Shown here piece after piece: positions 1,100 through 10,186 of a stretch of DNA of 32,245 nt. The notes under the pieces were generated by a model. That model saw only the letters and a list, made by a program, of their open reading frames with translations. It ran no database searches and was not told where the DNA came from. How positions within the stretch are numbered: position 1 is the first letter of the stretch; every line of letters begins with the position of its first letter. Position numbers and translations under genes: made by a program. The stretch is from positions 2,047 to 34,291 of the forward strand of contig CAIFEU010000008.1 of the NCBI GenBank assembly GCA_903789505.1, in the 5' to 3' direction. The stretch is from an uncultured Coriobacteriales bacterium. Lineage in GTDB: Bacteria; Actinomycetota; Coriobacteriia; Coriobacteriales; UMGS124.

Positions 1100-1777
1100 A
1101 TGAACTCATCTGCCAAGAGGCGGCTCACGATCGTCGGGCTCGTCATCGTCGTCGTCGCGATTCTGCTGTTCGTCTTTCTGGGCTCGGGCAGCAACGCCAA
1201 GGCGATCAGCGTGACCGACGCGGCGTCGGGCTCGTATGACGGGCGCAAGGTCCAGGTCTCCGGCGCCATCGCCGACGACTCCTACACCACGCAGGGCTCC
1301 GAGACGACGTTCACGATCTGCGACGAGGGTGACCCCGACACGACCCTGACGGTCAAGTACGACGGCGCCCTGCCCGCGACGTTCGGCAACGGCGTCACCG
1401 CCATCTGCACCGGCACGGTCAGCGGCGGCGAGCTCGACGCCTCGGAGATGGTCACCAAGTGCCCCTCCAAGTACGAGAGCGCCGAGGGTTCGCTCACGGT
1501 CGGCCTGATGCTGCAGAACGCTTCCACCTACAAGGGGACGCAGATCAAGGTGGCGGGGTACGTCACCGAGGGCACGTTGGCCGACGCGACCGCCGACGTG
1601 CGGTTCGTCCTCAACTCGCAGGGCAGCAGCGTCGACGTCGTCTACGACGGCGCGCTGCCCGACGGCATCGCTGACGGGTCCGCAGTCGTCGTGACCGGCA
1701 CCCTCTCGGACGACGCGTCGCAGTTCGTGGCGACCGACGTCGCCCTGGACAGCAGCATCAGCTCCGCTCAGGACTAG
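1100..1777 (+). CDS. ccmE: CcmE-like heme chaperone with two tandem OB-like domains; CXXXY (CPSKY) motif at the end of the first domain
   Basis: Start ATG 1100 (MNSSAKRRLTIVGL + TM). CcmE-like 'LTVKYDGALPATFGNGVTAICTGTVSGGELDASEMVTKCPSKYE'; similar second block 'VDVVYDGALPDGIADGSAVVVTGTLSDDASQFVATDVAL'; first gene of a ccm cluster. Confidence 0.85.
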   Translation: MNSSAKRRLTIVGLVIVVVAILLFVFLGSGSNAKAISVTDAASGSYDGRKVQVSGAIADDSYTTQGSETTFTICDEGDPDTTLTVKYDGALPATFGNGVTAICTGTVSGGELDASEMVTKCPSKYESAEGSLTVGLMLQNASTYKGTQIKVAGYVTEGTLADATADVRFVLNSQGSSVDVVYDGALPDGIADGSAVVVTGTLSDDASQFVATDVALDSSISSAQD

Positions 1778-1809: not shown

Positions 1810-4092
1810 ATGGTTTCCTACGGAATGGTCACGTTCGGCGCGGCGATGCTGTGGCTGTGCTTCATCATCGCCGCCGCCTCCGCGGTGTTCCTCGCCGTCG
1901 GTCACTTCGCGAAGAGCGCCGACTCGCGCACCTGGGGATTCCGGCTGGTGTACGGCTCCTGCGCCACGGCGCTGCTCGCCTGCCTGACGATCGTCGTCGG
2001 GTTCTTCACGCACAACATCGCGATTGAGTACGTGGCGCAGAACTACCCCGTCGACACCGGCTCGCTGTTCTGGCTGTACAAGCTCTCCGGCCTATGGGCG
2101 GGGCGCGCGGGCTCGCTTTTGCTGTGGGGCTTCCTGATCTCGGCGTTCGCGGCGTTCATCGCCTGGAAGCGCCGCAGCGAGCGCGACTCGCTCACGACCG
2201 TTGCCCTGATGGTCATCCAGGTCGTCCTGGTCCTGTTCACGGCCACGATGCTGTTCTCGTCGTCCAACAACCCCTTCCTGGCGACCGACTCCAGCTACAT
2301 CTCCGACGGTAAGCTCACCGGGACGGCGATGCTGTGGGGGATGAACATCCTGCTCGAGCACTGGGCGATGGTCCTCCATCCGCCGATGCTGTTCATCGGC
2401 TACGCCGGCATGACCGTCCCGTTCGCGTACGGCCTGGCGGCTCTGATCGTCAACGACCCTTCCAGGCGTTGGGTCGACCTGTGCCAGCGCATCGCCCTGT
2501 TCGCGTTCATCTTCCTGACGATTGGCATCGGCCTGGGCGCCGTGTGGGCATACGTCGTTCTGGGCTGGGGCGGCTACTGGGGCTGGGACCCGGTCGAGAA
2601 CGCGAGCCTGCTGTCGTGGCTCACGTCCGTGGCGATGCTGCACAGCTTCAACGTCTACCGCCGCCGCTCGATGATGCACGGCTGGGCGCTGCTCTCCGCG
2701 ACGCTGACGTTCGTGTTCGTCGTGCTGGGCACGTTCATCACGCGTTCGGGGCTGGTGCAGTCGGTCCACGCGTTCTCGAACGACAACGTCTCGACGGCGA
2801 TCTTCCTCATCATCATGATTGCCGCCTTCGCGGCCTTCGCCATCCTGTGGTTCGTGCGCCGCAAGGACTTCGCCAACCTCGACGACATAGAGTCGGTCGC
2901 CTCAAAGAACGGCTCGTACTACCTGACCTGCCTGATCATGGTGTTCGCCGGCATTCTGCTGGCCTACCTCACCGTCTGCAGCGCCCTCCCCAGCTGGATG
3001 CCCGCCGGCGGCACGTCGATCGGTACCGGGGCGTATGAGACCATCTCGCGCCCGCTCGGCATCCTGGTGTGCCTGCTCGCCGCCGTCTGCCCGTTCCTGT
3101 CGTGGAAGCGCACCGACGGCGCGGAGTTCTGGAGGAACCTGCGGGCGCCGCTGGTGGTGGCTGTCGTCATCTTCGTCGCCCTGCTGGTCGAGTTCTTCGT
3201 CAACCTGCTCCCCGCCTACAACGAGGTGATGGCGTCCGGTGGCACCGCCGCCGACGACCTGGCGTCGATGGGGCCGTCGTGGTACTACAACGGGCTAGCG
3301 GTCGTCGGTCTGTTCGTCGCCTCGCTGCTCGCCTGCAACTCGCTGTACCTGCTCGTGCGCGGCGTGCGCGGCAGGATGGAGAGCAAGGGCGAGGGCTTCG
3401 GCACCGCCCTGGGGCATCTGGTCACCAAGTCGCCGGCGGCGTTCGGTGGGTATCTGACGCACCTCGGCCTGGGCATCGTCCTGGTGGGCCTGATCGGCTC
3501 GAGCATGTACGTCACCGAGTACACCTACGACGTGACGACCGCCTCGTCGGGGACGCTCGAGATCGGCGACTACAGCATCGAGTACGGCGGGCTCTCCACC
3601 TCGACCGATGACCTCGGCTTCTCCAACATCTCGGCGAACCTGTCGGTCTCCTCGGATGGCAGCTATGTGACGACACTCGACCCGACGATCAGCATCGCCA
3701 ACTCCGGCAGTTCGATGGGCTCGGTGCGCTCCACCGCGAAGGTGCATTCGACGCCCGCGGGCGACCTGTTCGCCGCCCTCTCAGCCCAGCAGAACAGCTC
3801 CACCGGCCAGATCGTGGCGCTGTACCTGAGCGTGCGCGAGAACCCGCTGATCTCGTTCGTGTGGGTGGGCTTCGCCGTCATGGTCGTGGGCATCGTGATG
3901 GCCACGGCGATGCGTCGCGGGTCCGAGCAGGGCGCCGTTGCCGCGGGAGCGAAGGGCGGGGTCGCCCCGGTCGTCGCGGGCGGCGCCGGCAAGCGCGCGT
4001 TCCAGCCCCTCCCCAAGTCCAAGGCGGGCGCCTCTGGTGCCGGCTCCGCGGCACGGCCCAAGAAGTCGTCGCGCCCGCGCAAGTCGCACTAG
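1810..4092 (+). CDS. ccmF: Cytochrome c maturation protein CcmF / heme lyase
   Basis: 760 aa, multi-TM, WWD motif 'WGGYWGWDPVENASLLSWL', 'FITRSGLVQSVHAF'; basic C-terminal tail. Confidence 0.95.
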   Translation: MVSYGMVTFGAAMLWLCFIIAAASAVFLAVGHFAKSADSRTWGFRLVYGSCATALLACLTIVVGFFTHNIAIEYVAQNYPVDTGSLFWLYKLSGLWAGRAGSLLLWGFLISAFAAFIAWKRRSERDSLTTVALMVIQVVLVLFTATMLFSSSNNPFLATDSSYISDGKLTGTAMLWGMNILLEHWAMVLHPPMLFIGYAGMTVPFAYGLAALIVNDPSRRWVDLCQRIALFAFIFLTIGIGLGAVWAYVVLGWGGYWGWDPVENASLLSWLTSVAMLHSFNVYRRRSMMHGWALLSATLTFVFVVLGTFITRSGLVQSVHAFSNDNVSTAIFLIIMIAAFAAFAILWFVRRKDFANLDDIESVASKNGSYYLTCLIMVFAGILLAYLTVCSALPSWMPAGGTSIGTGAYETISRPLGILVCLLAAVCPFLSWKRTDGAEFWRNLRAPLVVAVVIFVALLVEFFVNLLPAYNEVMASGGTAADDLASMGPSWYYNGLAVVGLFVASLLACNSLYLLVRGVRGRMESKGEGFGTALGHLVTKSPAAFGGYLTHLGLGIVLVGLIGSSMYVTEYTYDVTTASSGTLEIGDYSIEYGGLSTSTDDLGFSNISANLSVSSDGSYVTTLDPTISIANSGSSMGSVRSTAKVHSTPAGDLFAALSAQQNSSTGQIVALYLSVRENPLISFVWVGFAVMVVGIVMATAMRRGSEQGAVAAGAKGGVAPVVAGGAGKRAFQPLPKSKAGASGAGSAARPKKSSRPRKSH

Positions 4093-4105
4093 GGCGGCGC
4101 TGACC

Positions 4106-4885
4106 TTGCCCACTGCGAACGACACGCCCCCGAAGGTCACCGGGCCCGCCGGCGCGGGCCCTGCCATCCGGGCACGCGACATCACCAAGGCGTTCGGCTC
4201 GAGGCGCGCCCTCGACGGGGTCGACGTCACGGTCCCTGCCGGCGCGTTCCTCACGGTGTTCGGGCCCAACGGCGCCGGCAAGACGACGCTGCTGCGCATC
4301 CTCTCGACGCTCGCCCGTCCCACGTCCGGCACGCTCGAGCTTCTCGGCGCGGACGCCCTGCACGACGATCCCAACGCGCTGCGCGGGCGAATCGGCATGA
4401 TCTCTCACCGGTCCATGGCGTACGCCGACCTGTCCGCCCGCGAGAACCTGCTGCTGTTCGCCCGCCTGTATGGCGTCGCCGACCCCGACCGGCGCGTGAC
4501 GGAGCTGCTCGAACTGGTCGAGCTCGGGCACCGCGCCAACGACCAGGCCGGCACGTTCTCGCGCGGGATGTCGCAGCGCCTCTCGATCGCACGGGCCCTG
4601 GTCAACGATCCCGAGCTGATTCTGCTCGACGAGCCCTACGCGGGCCTTGACCCGCACGGCATGCGCCTGCTCGATGACCTCATCGAGCGCATTCGCCCCG
4701 GGCGGACGTTCGTGATGGTCTCGCACGACCTCGAACGCGGCTACGCGCTGTGCACGCACGCGCTGATCCTCGCGCGCGGCAGGGTCGTGCTGCAGGGCGC
4801 GCGCGACGAGCTTGACGCCGACGACTTCCGGGACACCTACCTGTCGGTGGTCGGGTCGCTGACGTCCGACGTGGAGGCGGGGTGA
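4106..4885 (+). CDS. ccmA: Heme exporter ABC transporter ATP-binding protein CcmA
   Basis: Walker A 'GPNGAGKTTLLRIL', signature-like 'FSRGMSQRLSIARALVNDPELILLDEPYAGLD'; probable TTG start 4106 (LPTANDTPPK...); the longer ORF start at 3938 overlaps ccmF. Confidence 0.88.
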   Translation: MPTANDTPPKVTGPAGAGPAIRARDITKAFGSRRALDGVDVTVPAGAFLTVFGPNGAGKTTLLRILSTLARPTSGTLELLGADALHDDPNALRGRIGMISHRSMAYADLSARENLLLFARLYGVADPDRRVTELLELVELGHRANDQAGTFSRGMSQRLSIARALVNDPELILLDEPYAGLDPHGMRLLDDLIERIRPGRTFVMVSHDLERGYALCTHALILARGRVVLQGARDELDADDFRDTYLSVVGSLTSDVEAG

Positions 4886-5685
4886 TCGCGATGGGGAAGG
4901 GGGACTCGAAGCCGGAGGGCACGCTCGCCGACACGGCCTCGGGCGCGCGTGACGCCGGAGCTGGGAGCCCCGCCGCGTCGCCGCGCCGGGCGTCGGCGTG
5001 GGCGCAGTACCGCGCCCTTCTGGCGAAGGACCTGCGCATCGAGGCGCGCACCCGGGAGATGGTCGTCTCGATGGGCGTCTACGCGGTGCTCGTCCTGACC
5101 GTATACGGTGCGACGCTGTCTCAGACCGGGGACGCCCTTGACGTCCTCAACGTCGCCTCCGGCCTGCTGTGGGCGATGGTGGTGTTCACTTCGCTGCTCG
5201 GTCTGAACCGGTCCTTCTCGCACGAGAGGGCCGATGGCTGCATGGAAGGGGTCCTGCTCGCCCCGGTGAGCCGCTCTGCGATGTTCTTCGCAAAGGCGAC
5301 GAGCAACTTCCTGTTCATGCTTGTCGTCGAGGTCATCGCCGTACCGCTCTTCTTCCTGTTCTTCCTTGCCGGGGCGCAGGTGGGGCCCAGCGCGTGGCTC
5401 ATCGTCCCGCCCCTTCTGCTCGGCACCGTCGGCATGGCGGGCATCGGCACGTTCATGGCGACGATCACGATGGATACGCGCGGCAAGGACGTGCTGCTCG
5501 CGATTCTGCTCATCCCGGTGATTTTCCCGCTGCTGTACGCCTGCGTGAGCTCGACCTCGATCGCCCTGCTCGACGTTGTCGGTCAGATGGGGACCTACCT
5601 GCGATCGCTCGCGCTGGCGGGGGGTTACGATGTCATCATGCTCGCGGCCGCCTGGGGGCTGTACGAGTTCGTCGTTGGGTCGTAG
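4882..5685 (+). CDS. ccmB: Heme exporter permease CcmB
   Basis: GTG start overlapping ccmA stop (GTGA); CcmB-like 'YRALLAKDLRIEARTREMVVSMGVYAVLVLTVYG' and six-TM-like pattern. Confidence 0.88.
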   Translation: MIAMGKGDSKPEGTLADTASGARDAGAGSPAASPRRASAWAQYRALLAKDLRIEARTREMVVSMGVYAVLVLTVYGATLSQTGDALDVLNVASGLLWAMVVFTSLLGLNRSFSHERADGCMEGVLLAPVSRSAMFFAKATSNFLFMLVVEVIAVPLFFLFFLAGAQVGPSAWLIVPPLLLGTVGMAGIGTFMATITMDTRGKDVLLAILLIPVIFPLLYACVSSTSIALLDVVGQMGTYLRSLALAGGYDVIMLAAAWGLYEFVVGS

Positions 5686-5771: not shown

Positions 5772-6572
5772 GTGGCGAACGAAAGCGCAAACGAGCGGGA
5801 GGCGGGGGGCGGTCGCCGCTGGTCCAGCGGGCGCTGGACGACCGTCGCGATCGTCGCCGTCGTCCTGGGGTGCGCACTGACGACGCTCGACTTCCTGTGG
5901 GCGTTCCTGCGCGCCCCGATGGTCAGCGGTGCGAACCTCTCTGACGGTCAGGCCGCCATCATCAACGGCACGGTCGTGAGCACGAGGCTGCTCTTCTCGC
6001 AGAAGATCTTCTACTTCCACGTGCCGGTGGCCATCGTGTCGTTCTGCTTCATCATCGCGGCCGCGGTCTACGCGGTCATGTTCCTCGCGCGGCGCCGCGA
6101 GTCGTATGACCTGCGCTCGAGGCTGTGCATGCTCGTGGGGCTGGTCTTCATCGTCGCGACGATGATCTCGGGCGACCTGTGGACGCGCCATGACTGGGGC
6201 GTCTGGTGGGTGTGGGAGCCGCGCCTGACCACCTACTTCATCCTGATGCTGCTCGTGATTGCGTACTTCATCCTGCGCGCCGCCGTCGAGGATCCCGAGA
6301 CCCAGGCGCGCTTCGCCGCCGTCTTCGCAATCGTCGCCGCGATTGACGCCCCGATATCGTTCTTCATCACGCGTCTGGTCCCCTCCTCGATCCACCCGGT
6401 GGTCATCCGCACCGACTCGGGCCTCCCCCCGGACATGCTGGTCCCGTTCCTGGCGGGCATCTTCGGGATGGCGCTGGTGGGATTCGGCTTCTTCCGCCTG
6501 CGCCTGACCTTGGAGGAGCAGGCCATGGAGGTCGAGAGCCTCAAACGCTCCTACGAGGAGCTCCTCGACTAG
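5772..6572 (+). CDS. ccmC: Heme exporter/heme handling protein CcmC
   Basis: GTG start; 'QKIFYFHVPVAIVSF', WWD-type motif 'WGVWWVWEPRLTTYF'. Confidence 0.9.
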   Translation: MANESANEREAGGGRRWSSGRWTTVAIVAVVLGCALTTLDFLWAFLRAPMVSGANLSDGQAAIINGTVVSTRLLFSQKIFYFHVPVAIVSFCFIIAAAVYAVMFLARRRESYDLRSRLCMLVGLVFIVATMISGDLWTRHDWGVWWVWEPRLTTYFILMLLVIAYFILRAAVEDPETQARFAAVFAIVAAIDAPISFFITRLVPSSIHPVVIRTDSGLPPDMLVPFLAGIFGMALVGFGFFRLRLTLEEQAMEVESLKRSYEELLD

Positions 6573-6854: not shown

Positions 6855-6918
6855 GGCCGTCAACGGGGTCATCGCCCGTCGTCGCCTGCCGGGCGTCGGA
6901 CGGGGAATGGAGGGACGC

Positions 6919-7884
6919 ATGCTTGACGAGGTCGTGTTCGAGCCGCAGATGGACAAGGGGCTGTACCACGAGCGCCGCGACCAGCTCGGCGAGCGCCTCA
7001 TGGTCCTGCAGCAGCAGGCCAAGGCTGCCAAGCTCGGTACGGTGATCATCTTCGAGGGATGGCACGCCGCGGGCAAGGGTGCCTGTATCTCGAACCTGGT
7101 CGTCAACCTCGACCCGCGCCTGTACAGCGTCCACAACATCGCCGACCCCGTCGGCTACGAGGCGCGCCTGCCGTTCATGGCGCGGTTCTGGAGCCGGCTG
7201 GGCGCGCACGGCACGATGACGATCTTCAACCGCTCGTACTACGACGCCCTGTCGCGGTCCTACGTAGACGAGGTGCGCGAGGGCAACATCACCGCAGACC
7301 GCGCCACGCGCGAGGCGCTGACCGAGCGCGCGATGCGCCGCATCAAGGAGCATGTCGGCAGCGCCCGCGCGTTCGAGACCCAGCTGGAGGCCGACGGCTA
7401 CCTGATCGTGAAGCTGTTCCTGCACATCACCAAGCAGGAGCAGACGCGCCGCACGATCGACCTGCTGCTCGACCAGAACTCCTCATGGAAGGTCGACGAC
7501 CGCGACATGAGCCAGCTGCGCCACTACGAGGACTACTACCGGGTTTTCGACCGGTGGCTGAGCGACCCCAAGTTCATGACGACCGGCGTCTGGCACGTCG
7601 TCCCCTCGCAGTACAAGCGCAACGCCACGATCCAGGTCATGCAGACCATCGCCGACGAGATGACCCGCGCCCTCGAGGCGCGCGGGTTCGACACGTCCCA
7701 GCCGATACCCGCGGGCGACGAGCCGGTCGTGACCGTCACCCCCGCGCAGCGGGCGTTCGCCGAGCTCGAGGCCGCCCAGGTGGCGGAGGAGCGCGCCCCC
7801 CGGGAGTTCGAGGACGGCGCCTCCGATGCCGACCCAACCGCGGCGAACGGGGGACGGCCCCTCACTGCGGCGATGGCGACCTAG
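6919..7884 (+). CDS. PPK2-family polyphosphate:AMP/nucleotide phosphotransferase, N-terminal PPK2 domain (ORF ends at in-frame TAG)
   Basis: 'VIIFEGWHAAGKGACISNLVVNLDPRLYSVHNI...FNRSYYDALSRSYVDE'; ATG 6919 preceded by GGAGGG; ATG 6907 is the alternative start. Confidence 0.82.
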   Translation: MLDEVVFEPQMDKGLYHERRDQLGERLMVLQQQAKAAKLGTVIIFEGWHAAGKGACISNLVVNLDPRLYSVHNIADPVGYEARLPFMARFWSRLGAHGTMTIFNRSYYDALSRSYVDEVREGNITADRATREALTERAMRRIKEHVGSARAFETQLEADGYLIVKLFLHITKQEQTRRTIDLLLDQNSSWKVDDRDMSQLRHYEDYYRVFDRWLSDPKFMTTGVWHVVPSQYKRNATIQVMQTIADEMTRALEARGFDTSQPIPAGDEPVVTVTPAQRAFAELEAAQVAEERAPREFEDGASDADPTAANGGRPLTAAMAT

Positions 7885-8025
7885 CAGGCGCGCCAGGAGG
7901 CACAGGCTGCCGCCGTCGAGGCGGCGGGCGGGGCTCGCCAGGCGGTCGCCCGGGCGGCGCGGGACGGCACGCGGCTCGCCGACGATACCGGCGAGGTCCA
8001 CTACACCGAGAAGCAGGCGCGCCGT

Positions 8026-8800
8026 GTGGTCGGCTCGGTCAAGGGGCTCACCTCGCGATTCAGGCTCGTCGACGTCCCGGACCTCGACGACGTTCGCCAC
8101 GACCTGTGCTTGAGCAAGGAGGAGTACCACGAGCGGCTCGACGAGGAGCAGCGCCGCCTGCGCGAGCTCTCGCTGCAGCTGTATCGACACAGGATTCCGA
8201 TGGTCATCGCCTACGAGGGATGGGACGCCGCCGGCAAGGGAGGCAACATCAAGCGCGTCGCCTCGGCCCTCGACGCGCGCAACTACCAGGTGTACCCGAT
8301 CGCGTCTCCGAGCGCTGACGAGCTGGCGCACCCGTTCCTATGGCGCTTCTGGAACGACCTGCCGCGCACTGGGCACGTTTCGGTGTTCGACCGCACCTGG
8401 TACGGGCGCGTGCTGGTGGAGCGCATCGAGGGGTTCGCCAAGCCGTGGGAGTGGCATCGCGCCTTCGAGGAGATTAACGAGTTCGAGGACGATCTGCGCG
8501 TCTGGGGCGCCGTCCTGGTCAAGTTCTGGGTCGACGTGTCGGCGGGGGAGCAGCTGCGGCGCTTCCAGGACCGCGAGTCCGACCCCGCCCGTCGCTGGAA
8601 GATCACGCAGGAGGACTGGCGCAACCGCTCCAAGAACGACCTGTACCGCGTGTGCGTGAACGATATGCTGCACCTGACCTCGACCGAGTACGCCCCCTGG
8701 GTCGTGATAGAGTCCGACGACAAGCGCTATGCCCGCGTGAAGGCCCTGCACGAGATCAACCGCGCGATCGAGCGTCGCCTCAAGCTGGGAGCCGCGCGGG
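8026..8800 (+). CDS. PPK2-family polyphosphate phosphotransferase, C-terminal PPK2 domain (same frame as the upstream ORF; 3' end approximate because no stop precedes the tRNA)
   Basis: 'MVIAYEGWDAAGKGGNIKRVASALDARNYQVYPIASPSADELAHPFLWRFWNDLPRTGHVSVFDRTWYGRVLVERIEGFA...'; PPK2-like sequence ends near 'INRAIERRLKLG'; ORF formally runs to 9606 through tRNA-Glu. Confidence 0.75.
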
Positions 8801-8884
8801 CCCCCCGGCCCGGGCGGGGGCGGACGGCGGCGCAGGCGCGGCGGGGGCGGGCTTGGCGAAAAACGCACATTTTGCGTGCGCCTC

Positions 8885-8913
8885 TTGTGCTGCGCCGCCA
8901 AGTTCCCGATAAT
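8885..8913 (+). promoter_or_regulatory. Candidate sigma70-type promoter for tRNA-Glu
   Basis: TTGTGC (8885-8890) - 17 bp - GATAAT (8908-8913), about 80 nt upstream of the tRNA. Confidence 0.5.
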
Positions 8914-8993
8914 GATAAACCGCTTTTGTGCTGCGTCCCGGCACGCGGCGCGCCATCAGAGTGCGCCCGCCGAGGCCTCGCAGGCGTTCGTGA

Positions 8994-9069
8994 GTCCCCA
9001 TCGTCTAGCGGTCTAGGACACCGCCCTTTCAAGGCGGGAACACGAGTTCGAGTCTCGTTGGGGGCACCA
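8994..9069 (+). tRNA. tRNA-Glu (anticodon TTC), CCA encoded
   Basis: GTCCCCA acceptor pairing with TGGGGGC, anticodon arm CCGCC-CTTTCAA-GGCGG, T-arm CGAGTTCGAGTCTCG, 3' ACCA. Confidence 0.95.
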
Positions 9070-9310
9070 TCTCCGTCACATTTCAGTTCGAGGCACCCGC
9101 CTTGCGGCGGGAGCTGCCTCCCGTACCGGGCGCGCCTCGCGCGGCCCACCCTCGGGCCGTCCCGGCCCGCGCCCGGGGATGTAGCAAGGCAGAAGGAGGG
9201 GGGCGGTTCGCACGGCGTCGGTCGCCCCCGAGAGCTCCGGCCTCACCTTCCCTTTCGCCCTCATCGCCTCGGGGTCCGCCTCGAGTGCGCTGCTCGCCCT
9301 CGCGGCCCTG

Positions 9311-10186
9311 GTGGCGGTCGCCGCCGTCGTCGCGCTGGCGGCTCTGGCTGCGCGCATCCGCCTGCGCGCGTCGTTCTCTGCCCGGTTCGGCCGCGGGGTG
9401 CTCAGGCGTGGCGTGCGCCTGTCGCGCCAGCGCGGTGCCGAGCGGGGGACCAACGCGTTCGGGCTTGCGTTCCCCGTTTGGCAGCATGCGGCCCGCGACG
9501 GCTCGGCCGACCGGCGGTATCGCGGCAACTCCCTGCTGTGGGGCAGGTGCGTCCTTTTGGTCGACGGCTTCGCCGTCTCGTGCAGGAACCCACTGGTGAT
9601 GATTGACATGGTGAGCGACCTGCGTGCCCGCGGGGTCGACGTCGGGCTGTGCGACATCGAGCTCGCGCGCTATCGCGAGCTGGTGGACGGCGCCGCACGT
9701 GCCGCGCGGCTCACCTCGGTCGCGGAGATATACCGGCAGTTCGTGTCGGATCCCGCGCGGTTCGAGCGCTTCGTGGCGCGGGTCTGGGAGGGGCTGGGAT
9801 ACGAGACCAGCGTGACGCCTGCGACCAATGACGGTGGCTACGACGTGGTCGCCCGCGCGGCGGGCCGCATGCAGATTGTCGAGTGCAAGTGCTTCGAGCC
9901 GTCGCGCAGCGTCGGGCGCCCGCTCATCCAGAAGCTCGTCGGCGCAAACGAGGTCGTGGGGGCCGACGAGATGGCGTTCGTGACCACGGCGGGCTTCTCG
10001 CGCGCGGCGCTCTCCTACGCGCGGGAGTCGGGGGTGACCTGCGTCGACGGGACGCGCCTGCTCGAGCTGTGGGGACGCGTGAGGGGCGGCGCGCCTGCCG
10101 ACGCCCGCTCGCAGCCGGTTGACGTCTCACGCGCCTGGCTGACGCGCGAGGACGCGCTGGCGTACTTTCCGCCCGACGTGAGGTAG
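9311..10186 (+). CDS. Membrane-anchored Mrr-like restriction endonuclease-domain protein
   Basis: N-terminal hydrophobic helix; C-terminal PD-(D/E)XK-like 'FERFVARVWEGLGYETSVTPATNDGGYDVVARAAGRMQIVECKCFEPSRSVGRPLIQKLVGA'; likely GTG start 9311. Confidence 0.8.
   Translation: MAVAAVVALAALAARIRLRASFSARFGRGVLRRGVRLSRQRGAERGTNAFGLAFPVWQHAARDGSADRRYRGNSLLWGRCVLLVDGFAVSCRNPLVMIDMVSDLRARGVDVGLCDIELARYRELVDGAARAARLTSVAEIYRQFVSDPARFERFVARVWEGLGYETSVTPATNDGGYDVVARAAGRMQIVECKCFEPSRSVGRPLIQKLVGANEVVGADEMAFVTTAGFSRAALSYARESGVTCVDGTRLLELWGRVRGGAPADARSQPVDVSRAWLTREDALAYFPPDVR

Follow-up and report, generated by a model that had tools for sequence, protein, structure and literature searches.

The window considered here, the whole stretch of 32,245 nucleotides, contains a ccmE gene whose product of 225 residues is an N-terminally anchored CcmE with two CcmE domains, the second of which has no heme site. 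This tandem is the rule of the class Coriobacteriia and is fixed there. The sequence-only reading had taken the architecture for the curiosity of one protein and offered no mechanism for the second block; the architecture is a property of the class as a whole. Among the possible roles of the second domain (D2) we favour, with a probability of about 0.45, that of a docking or lid module beside the heme, probably used at the hand-over to CcmF. The apparently new features are the fixed tandem and a D2-like insert in CcmF, whereas the Cys motif is known. Neither of the two was found described in the open-access literature, to which the search was confined.

Two CcmE domains, one heme motif

The ccmE open reading frame starts with the ATG at 1100 and ends with the stop codon at 1775–1777; a Shine-Dalgarno-like stretch, AGGGAGAG, lies just 5′ of the start. 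In the Pfam family scan, the whole protein scores 113.1 bits against PF03100 (curated cut-off 24.6), and the two halves, run individually, each score far above the cut-off. The match of the first domain (D1; E = 1.4e-16) covers positions 9–98 of the 99-position profile and thus reaches its end, the heme motif KCPSKY included. The match of D2 (E = 5e-15, positions 6–89) stops before the motif, and the D2 chain ends about where the motif would start. The direct comparison of D1 and D2 yields 30% over 74 residues (E = 3.6e-9), and the comparison of the D2 profile with Cys-type CcmEs gives a probability of 98.7% (E = 1.7e-16). The coordinates of all features are listed in Table 1.

Table 1. Features of the ccm locus, in window coordinates.
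Feature	Position	Strand	Basis
ccmE, tandem-domain Cys-type heme chaperone, 225 aa	1100..1777	+	ORF and translation; PF03100 twice; NCBIfam CcmE models below equivalog cut-offs
N-terminal transmembrane anchor, residues ~3–27	1106..1180	+	AlphaFold2 helix 3–27; hydrophobic stretch by direct reading
D1, canonical CcmE OB domain, residues ~38–125	1211..1474	+	PF03100 61.0 bits; strands E50–57, E68–74, E82–88, E100–108, E111–119 (AlphaFold2)
CPSKY, predicted heme-attachment motif	1460..1474	+	C121 codon 1460–1462, Y125 codon 1472–1474
Linker Y125 to V134, residues 126–134, 9 aa, constant length	1475..1501	+	75/75 distinct tandem proteins
D2, CcmE-derived OB domain without heme motif, residues ~131–217	1490..1750	+	PF03100 56.1 bits; AlphaFold2, Foldseek; PDB profile search
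ccmF, heme lyase, 760 aa	1810..4092	+	PF01578, PF16327
ccmA, ATPase; longest ORF, true start probably 3′ of ccmF	3938..4885	+	TIGR01189, PF00005
ccmB	4882..5685	+	PF03379
ccmC	5772..6572	+	PF01578, TIGR01191
ccmD-like ORF, 76 aa	6624..6854	+	PF04995 E 1.3e-4, 22.4 bits (below cut-off 25.6)

The AlphaFold2 model of the whole protein, built with 35 class sequences as input, features the N-terminal helix followed by two OB barrels (mean pLDDT 92.4), and CcmE structures are among its top Foldseek matches; with a pTM of 0.61, the mutual arrangement of D1 and D2 is predicted but loosely defined. The model of D2 alone has pLDDT 85.4 and pTM 0.72, and its top Foldseek matches are the CcmE structures 1lm0, 8ce8 and 1sr3. 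The possibility that D2 is an unrelated OB domain was rejected, as the CcmE chains retrieved in the PDB profile search have E values between 2e-8 and 1e-7, whereas no other match falls below 0.2. The description of both blocks as CcmE-like, OB-type domains, made from the letters only, is thus borne out by profile comparison and structure prediction, the second block included.

The H/CXXXY motif at the barrel end is present in D1 (C121-P-S-K-Y125), and this segment aligns in sequence with the heme motif of Desulfovibrio vulgaris CcmE (2kct). C121, P122 and Y125 are unchanged in all 51 class proteins of the first alignment and in 74 distinct proteins, which agrees with the earlier suggestion of a putative Cys-type heme site. 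The motif itself was read correctly, but the interval 1460–1474 given for KCPSKY holds CPSKY, the preceding lysine codon being at 1457–1459. In an earlier review, CPSKY is the most frequent variant, with 25 of 36 bacterial genomes (PMC3601427), and four CcmEs with phenylalanine replacing the motif tyrosine are mentioned in the same paper. We also observed this replacement (CSSKF, CPSKF, CASRF) in single-domain CcmEs of the loci L060, L063, L069, L070, L072, L214 and L217.

The second block had been described as lacking any such motif, and indeed [CH]xxx[YF] is present in none of 85 D2s. Hence D2 is derived from CcmE but is not a heme chaperone on its own. In the alignment of 74 distinct proteins, the lysine preceding the heme residue is not retained in D2, and the columns of the motif hold either gaps or unrelated residues. 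Further, a phenylalanine found in 100% of D1s, in 86% of single-domain Cys-type CcmEs and in 100% of His-type ones, is replaced by valine, methionine or isoleucine in most D2s. A second heme site formed by other residues was also rejected, since 62 of the 85 D2s contain neither cysteine nor histidine.

Conservation in the class and the operon context

CcmE was found in 220 of the 400 Coriobacteriia genomes searched, and the tandem in about 215 of the 400. All CcmE-bearing class genomes but ten have exactly two CcmE matches. The ten exceptions, inspected individually, comprise tandems accompanied by redundant or additional copies, fragments at contig edges, the insert in CcmF and one unrelated weak match. 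Several of them were considered as single-domain candidates and dropped: the genes of G092 and G150 are cut off by contig ends, G132 and G104 have tandems by the class-specific HMM, the sole match in G134 is the CcmF insert, and the weak match in G312 falls in an unrelated-looking secreted protein. No confirmed single-domain CcmE remained among the exceptions checked. In the opened class loci both domains are in one frame, and the alignment across the class comprises 85 proteins with the same tandem. The architecture had been called unusual, which holds outside the Coriobacteriia and fails inside. The genome of the window is a draft of 286 contigs, and the tandem might be ascribed to an assembly or gene-calling artefact such as a frameshift; this is refuted by the same one-frame tandem in complete single-contig genomes and in named isolates, type strains among them (Collinsella stercoris DSM 13279, Collinsella intestinalis DSM 13280, Parvibacter caecicola DSM 22242).

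Outside the class but within the phylum, 145 genomes were found to carry CcmE, and none of the located matches is an in-frame tandem. We also scanned named bacterial and archaeal genomes with the CPSKY pattern, to which tandems of the HXXXY type are invisible, and considered the best 80 of 360 loci. The tandems among these 80 are labelled as Coriobacteriia (Collinsella, Enorma, Gordonibacter, Slackia, Parvibacter, Eggerthellales) or as Actinomycetota MAGs with no finer useful label. Single domains in the same set come from the Acidobacteriota, Chloroflexota, Bacillota, Desulfovibrionia, Nitrospirota, Planctomycetota, Latescibacterota, Bathyarchaeota, Thermoleophilia and Aquicultoria. As the scan needed the Cys motif and covered the best 80 of 360 loci, restriction of the tandem to the Coriobacteriia is a statement about the sampled genomes.

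Two complete tandem ccmE genes on separate contigs were observed in one class genome (G326, loci L167 and L174). The listed genomes of the class family f2 have no CcmE and gave zero matches in the CcmF search, which suggests loss of the Ccm system in this family.

The operon order ccmE-F-A-B-C-D(-like) is mostly the same in the class loci that reach far enough, and most class operons have a homologue of the ccmD-like frame at this position. CcmH (PF03918) was found in none of 100 class genomes, that of the window included, while the control was positive in four named genomes. The Cys motif together with the absence of CcmH identifies the system as System I* in the sense of PMC3601427; Cys-type CcmE, CPSKY and a missing CcmH have all been described before (PMC3601427, PMC9084895). 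Another contig of the same genome encodes an NrfA-family protein in which CXXC[HK] occurs five times, hence the Ccm system has at least one client. No NapC/NirT cytochrome was found in this genome.

The gene directly 5′ of ccmE (196–834) encodes a BioY biotin transporter, and BioY adjoins ccmE in several more class loci (L041, L044, L093, L100, L146). The two frames just 3′ of the operon (6907–7884 and 8026–9606, that is, 6907–9606 of the window) resemble, by eye, polyphosphate kinase 2-type genes.

Possible roles of the second domain

The known function of CcmE would be retained by D1, which would accept heme from CcmC onto C121 of CPSKY and pass it on to CcmF, with Y125 as the likely iron ligand. 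D2, presumably derived from CcmE long ago and no longer able to bind heme, would order the heme loop, shield the exposed heme on one side and offer a contact surface to CcmF. The contact of D2 with heme or CcmF is what we infer from two observations, the geometry of the junction and the insert in CcmF.

The distance from Y125 to L137 is 12 residues in all 75 distinct tandem proteins, with no indels; by contrast, the length of the later loop as far as G153 differs by up to three residues between proteins. An unvarying linker implies a fixed geometry at the D1–D2 junction, and since the next OB domain starts nine residues past Y125, the heme must sit near this junction. In E. coli CcmE, the same region is a flexible C-terminal tail (PMC6204919, PMC10457321), whereas residues 121–130 here have a mean pLDDT of 82. 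The short fixed linker between two OB domains would thus replace the free tail, and the heme would hang where the domains meet.

The second observation comes from CcmF of two genomes, G110 (L180:214–2667, + strand) and G134 (L171:565–2730, − strand), which contains an additional domain some 90 residues long. The inserts match the CcmE model with E of about 1e-13 and 1e-12, respectively. The insert score is 46.5 bits with the D2 profile, compared to 36.6 and 26.1 with D1 and 27.2 and 30.0 with single-domain CcmEs. The domain is situated in a loop between NIWTPGG and LARPIGIL, flanked by two transmembrane stretches, and the helix count from the WWD motif places this loop on the predicted periplasmic side. 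G110 carries the insert in addition to the D2 of its own CcmE. The insert suggests that a D2 module is useful at the lyase. However, full-length insert matches occur in these two genomes only, both of one genus, out of about 220 in the class-wide search, so this is a hint rather than a pattern.

The fixed junction and the CcmF insert are the reason why docking or covering at the CcmF hand-over is the favoured role. It is also consistent with the two domains seen by both profile and fold, the loss of the heme motif in a D2 that is one clade under selection, the lack of CcmH and the NrfA-family client. The points against it are the pTM of 0.61, which makes the domain arrangement and the reach of D2 to C121 tentative, and the faster evolution of D2. 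Moreover, single-domain CPSKY CcmEs work in CcmH-less lineages (PMC3601427, PMC9084895), thus System I* chemistry as such can proceed without D2. A stronger version, which seems to us rather unlikely, is a heme clamp made of both domains and the rigid linker between them. D2 would then be a dedicated lyase-docking module compensating for the missing CcmH/CcmI, and the copy in CcmF would be this module transferred to the opposite side of the interface.

A less probable alternative is that D2 mainly docks to CcmC or CcmABCD, anchoring the chaperone to the exporter during heme loading of D1 and joining the ATP-driven release. The loop of E. coli CcmE that contacts CcmC contains Asp101 and Glu105 (PMC6204919), and the matching loop of D2 is mostly acidic, with 48% Asp and 27% Glu at the first place and 81% Asp and 10% Glu at the second; D1 has mainly Ala/Ser at the first and Asn/Asp at the second. 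On the other hand, single-domain CcmEs dock with no D2, D1 retains the loop type of other Cys-type CcmEs, and the D2-like insert is in CcmF, not in CcmC.

Lower in the ranking is the reading of D2 as a passive spacer or a stability domain, inherited from a duplication and retained because it aids folding, without a direct role in heme transfer. The dN/dS ratio of D2 has a median of 0.33 and a maximum of 0.54 over 185 pairs, compared to a median of 0.23 for D1, the values being rough because synonymous sites are close to saturated in many pairs. The domain thus evolves under purifying selection, and a decaying relic is ruled out by these ratios and by the class-wide retention. D2 does change faster than D1, and its conserved positions are largely OB-core residues, as a spacer would have it. 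However, purifying selection, the linker without one indel across the class and the retention in about 215 genomes with zero confirmed single-domain cases argue against a purely passive domain.

The last functional alternative, which we consider the least probable of these, is that D2 replaces the missing CcmH/CcmI at the lyase, the chaperone bringing along its own subunit for binding apocytochrome or CcmF. The absence of CcmH from the 100 class genomes and the presence of a D2-like domain within CcmF of one genus would fit, as would the fact that features compensating for the loss of CcmH were sought and not found (PMC3601427). However, the archaeal and desulfovibrio System I* manages with a single-domain CcmE and no CcmH (PMC3601427, PMC9084895), and D2s devoid of Cys and His allow no thiol chemistry.

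A second barrel with no heme site throughout the class suggests an unrecognised accessory part of cytochrome c assembly in common gut anaerobes. How System I* manages without CcmH is an open puzzle, for which the 2011 review saw no bioinformatic sign of compensation (PMC3601427). The class-wide extra CcmE domain by the heme site, together with its copy within CcmF of one lineage, is a concrete, testable candidate answer in the Coriobacteriia, although other System I* lineages do without it. There is a practical side as well. Heme loading of Eggerthella lenta Cgr1, a cytochrome linked to digoxin inactivation, failed in heterologous hosts, and the authors suspected incompatible maturation factors (PMC5953540); co-expression of the native operon including the two-domain CcmE would be sensible in this case.

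Relation to other CcmE proteins

The System I* CcmE of Desulfovibrio and archaea (CXXXY) has one OB domain and a short free tail, whereas in the Coriobacteriia the heme motif is followed by the fixed linker and the second OB domain. The System I CcmE of E. coli (HXXXY; 1sr3, 8ce8) shares the OB fold, the anchor and the role between CcmABCD and CcmF. It differs in having His instead of Cys, a flexible C-terminal tail and no D2, and it works with CcmH.

Two CcmE units also stand side by side elsewhere in the phylum, where other classes have adjacent ccmE genes of the Cys type (L073, L074, L080, L212, L213, L158). Unlike the tandem, these pairs are unfused, and each gene has a Cys motif: VRCP[DE]NY, VKCPSKY or IQCPDKL (with Tyr lost) in the upstream gene and AKCPSKY in the downstream one. 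The D2s form a single clade across the class (SH-aLRT 100). As for the origin of D2, fusion of a neighbouring ccmE gene was considered. In one tree, a branch with SH-aLRT 93 separates D1 and D2 together from the other CcmEs, but the grouping of D2 with the upstream genes of the L073/L074/L080-type pairs is likewise not rejected by the AU test (p = 0.53). A lone D2 was observed in G337 (L179), in an 82-aa frame beside an ambiguous base, about 16 kb from an intact tandem ccmE on the same contig.
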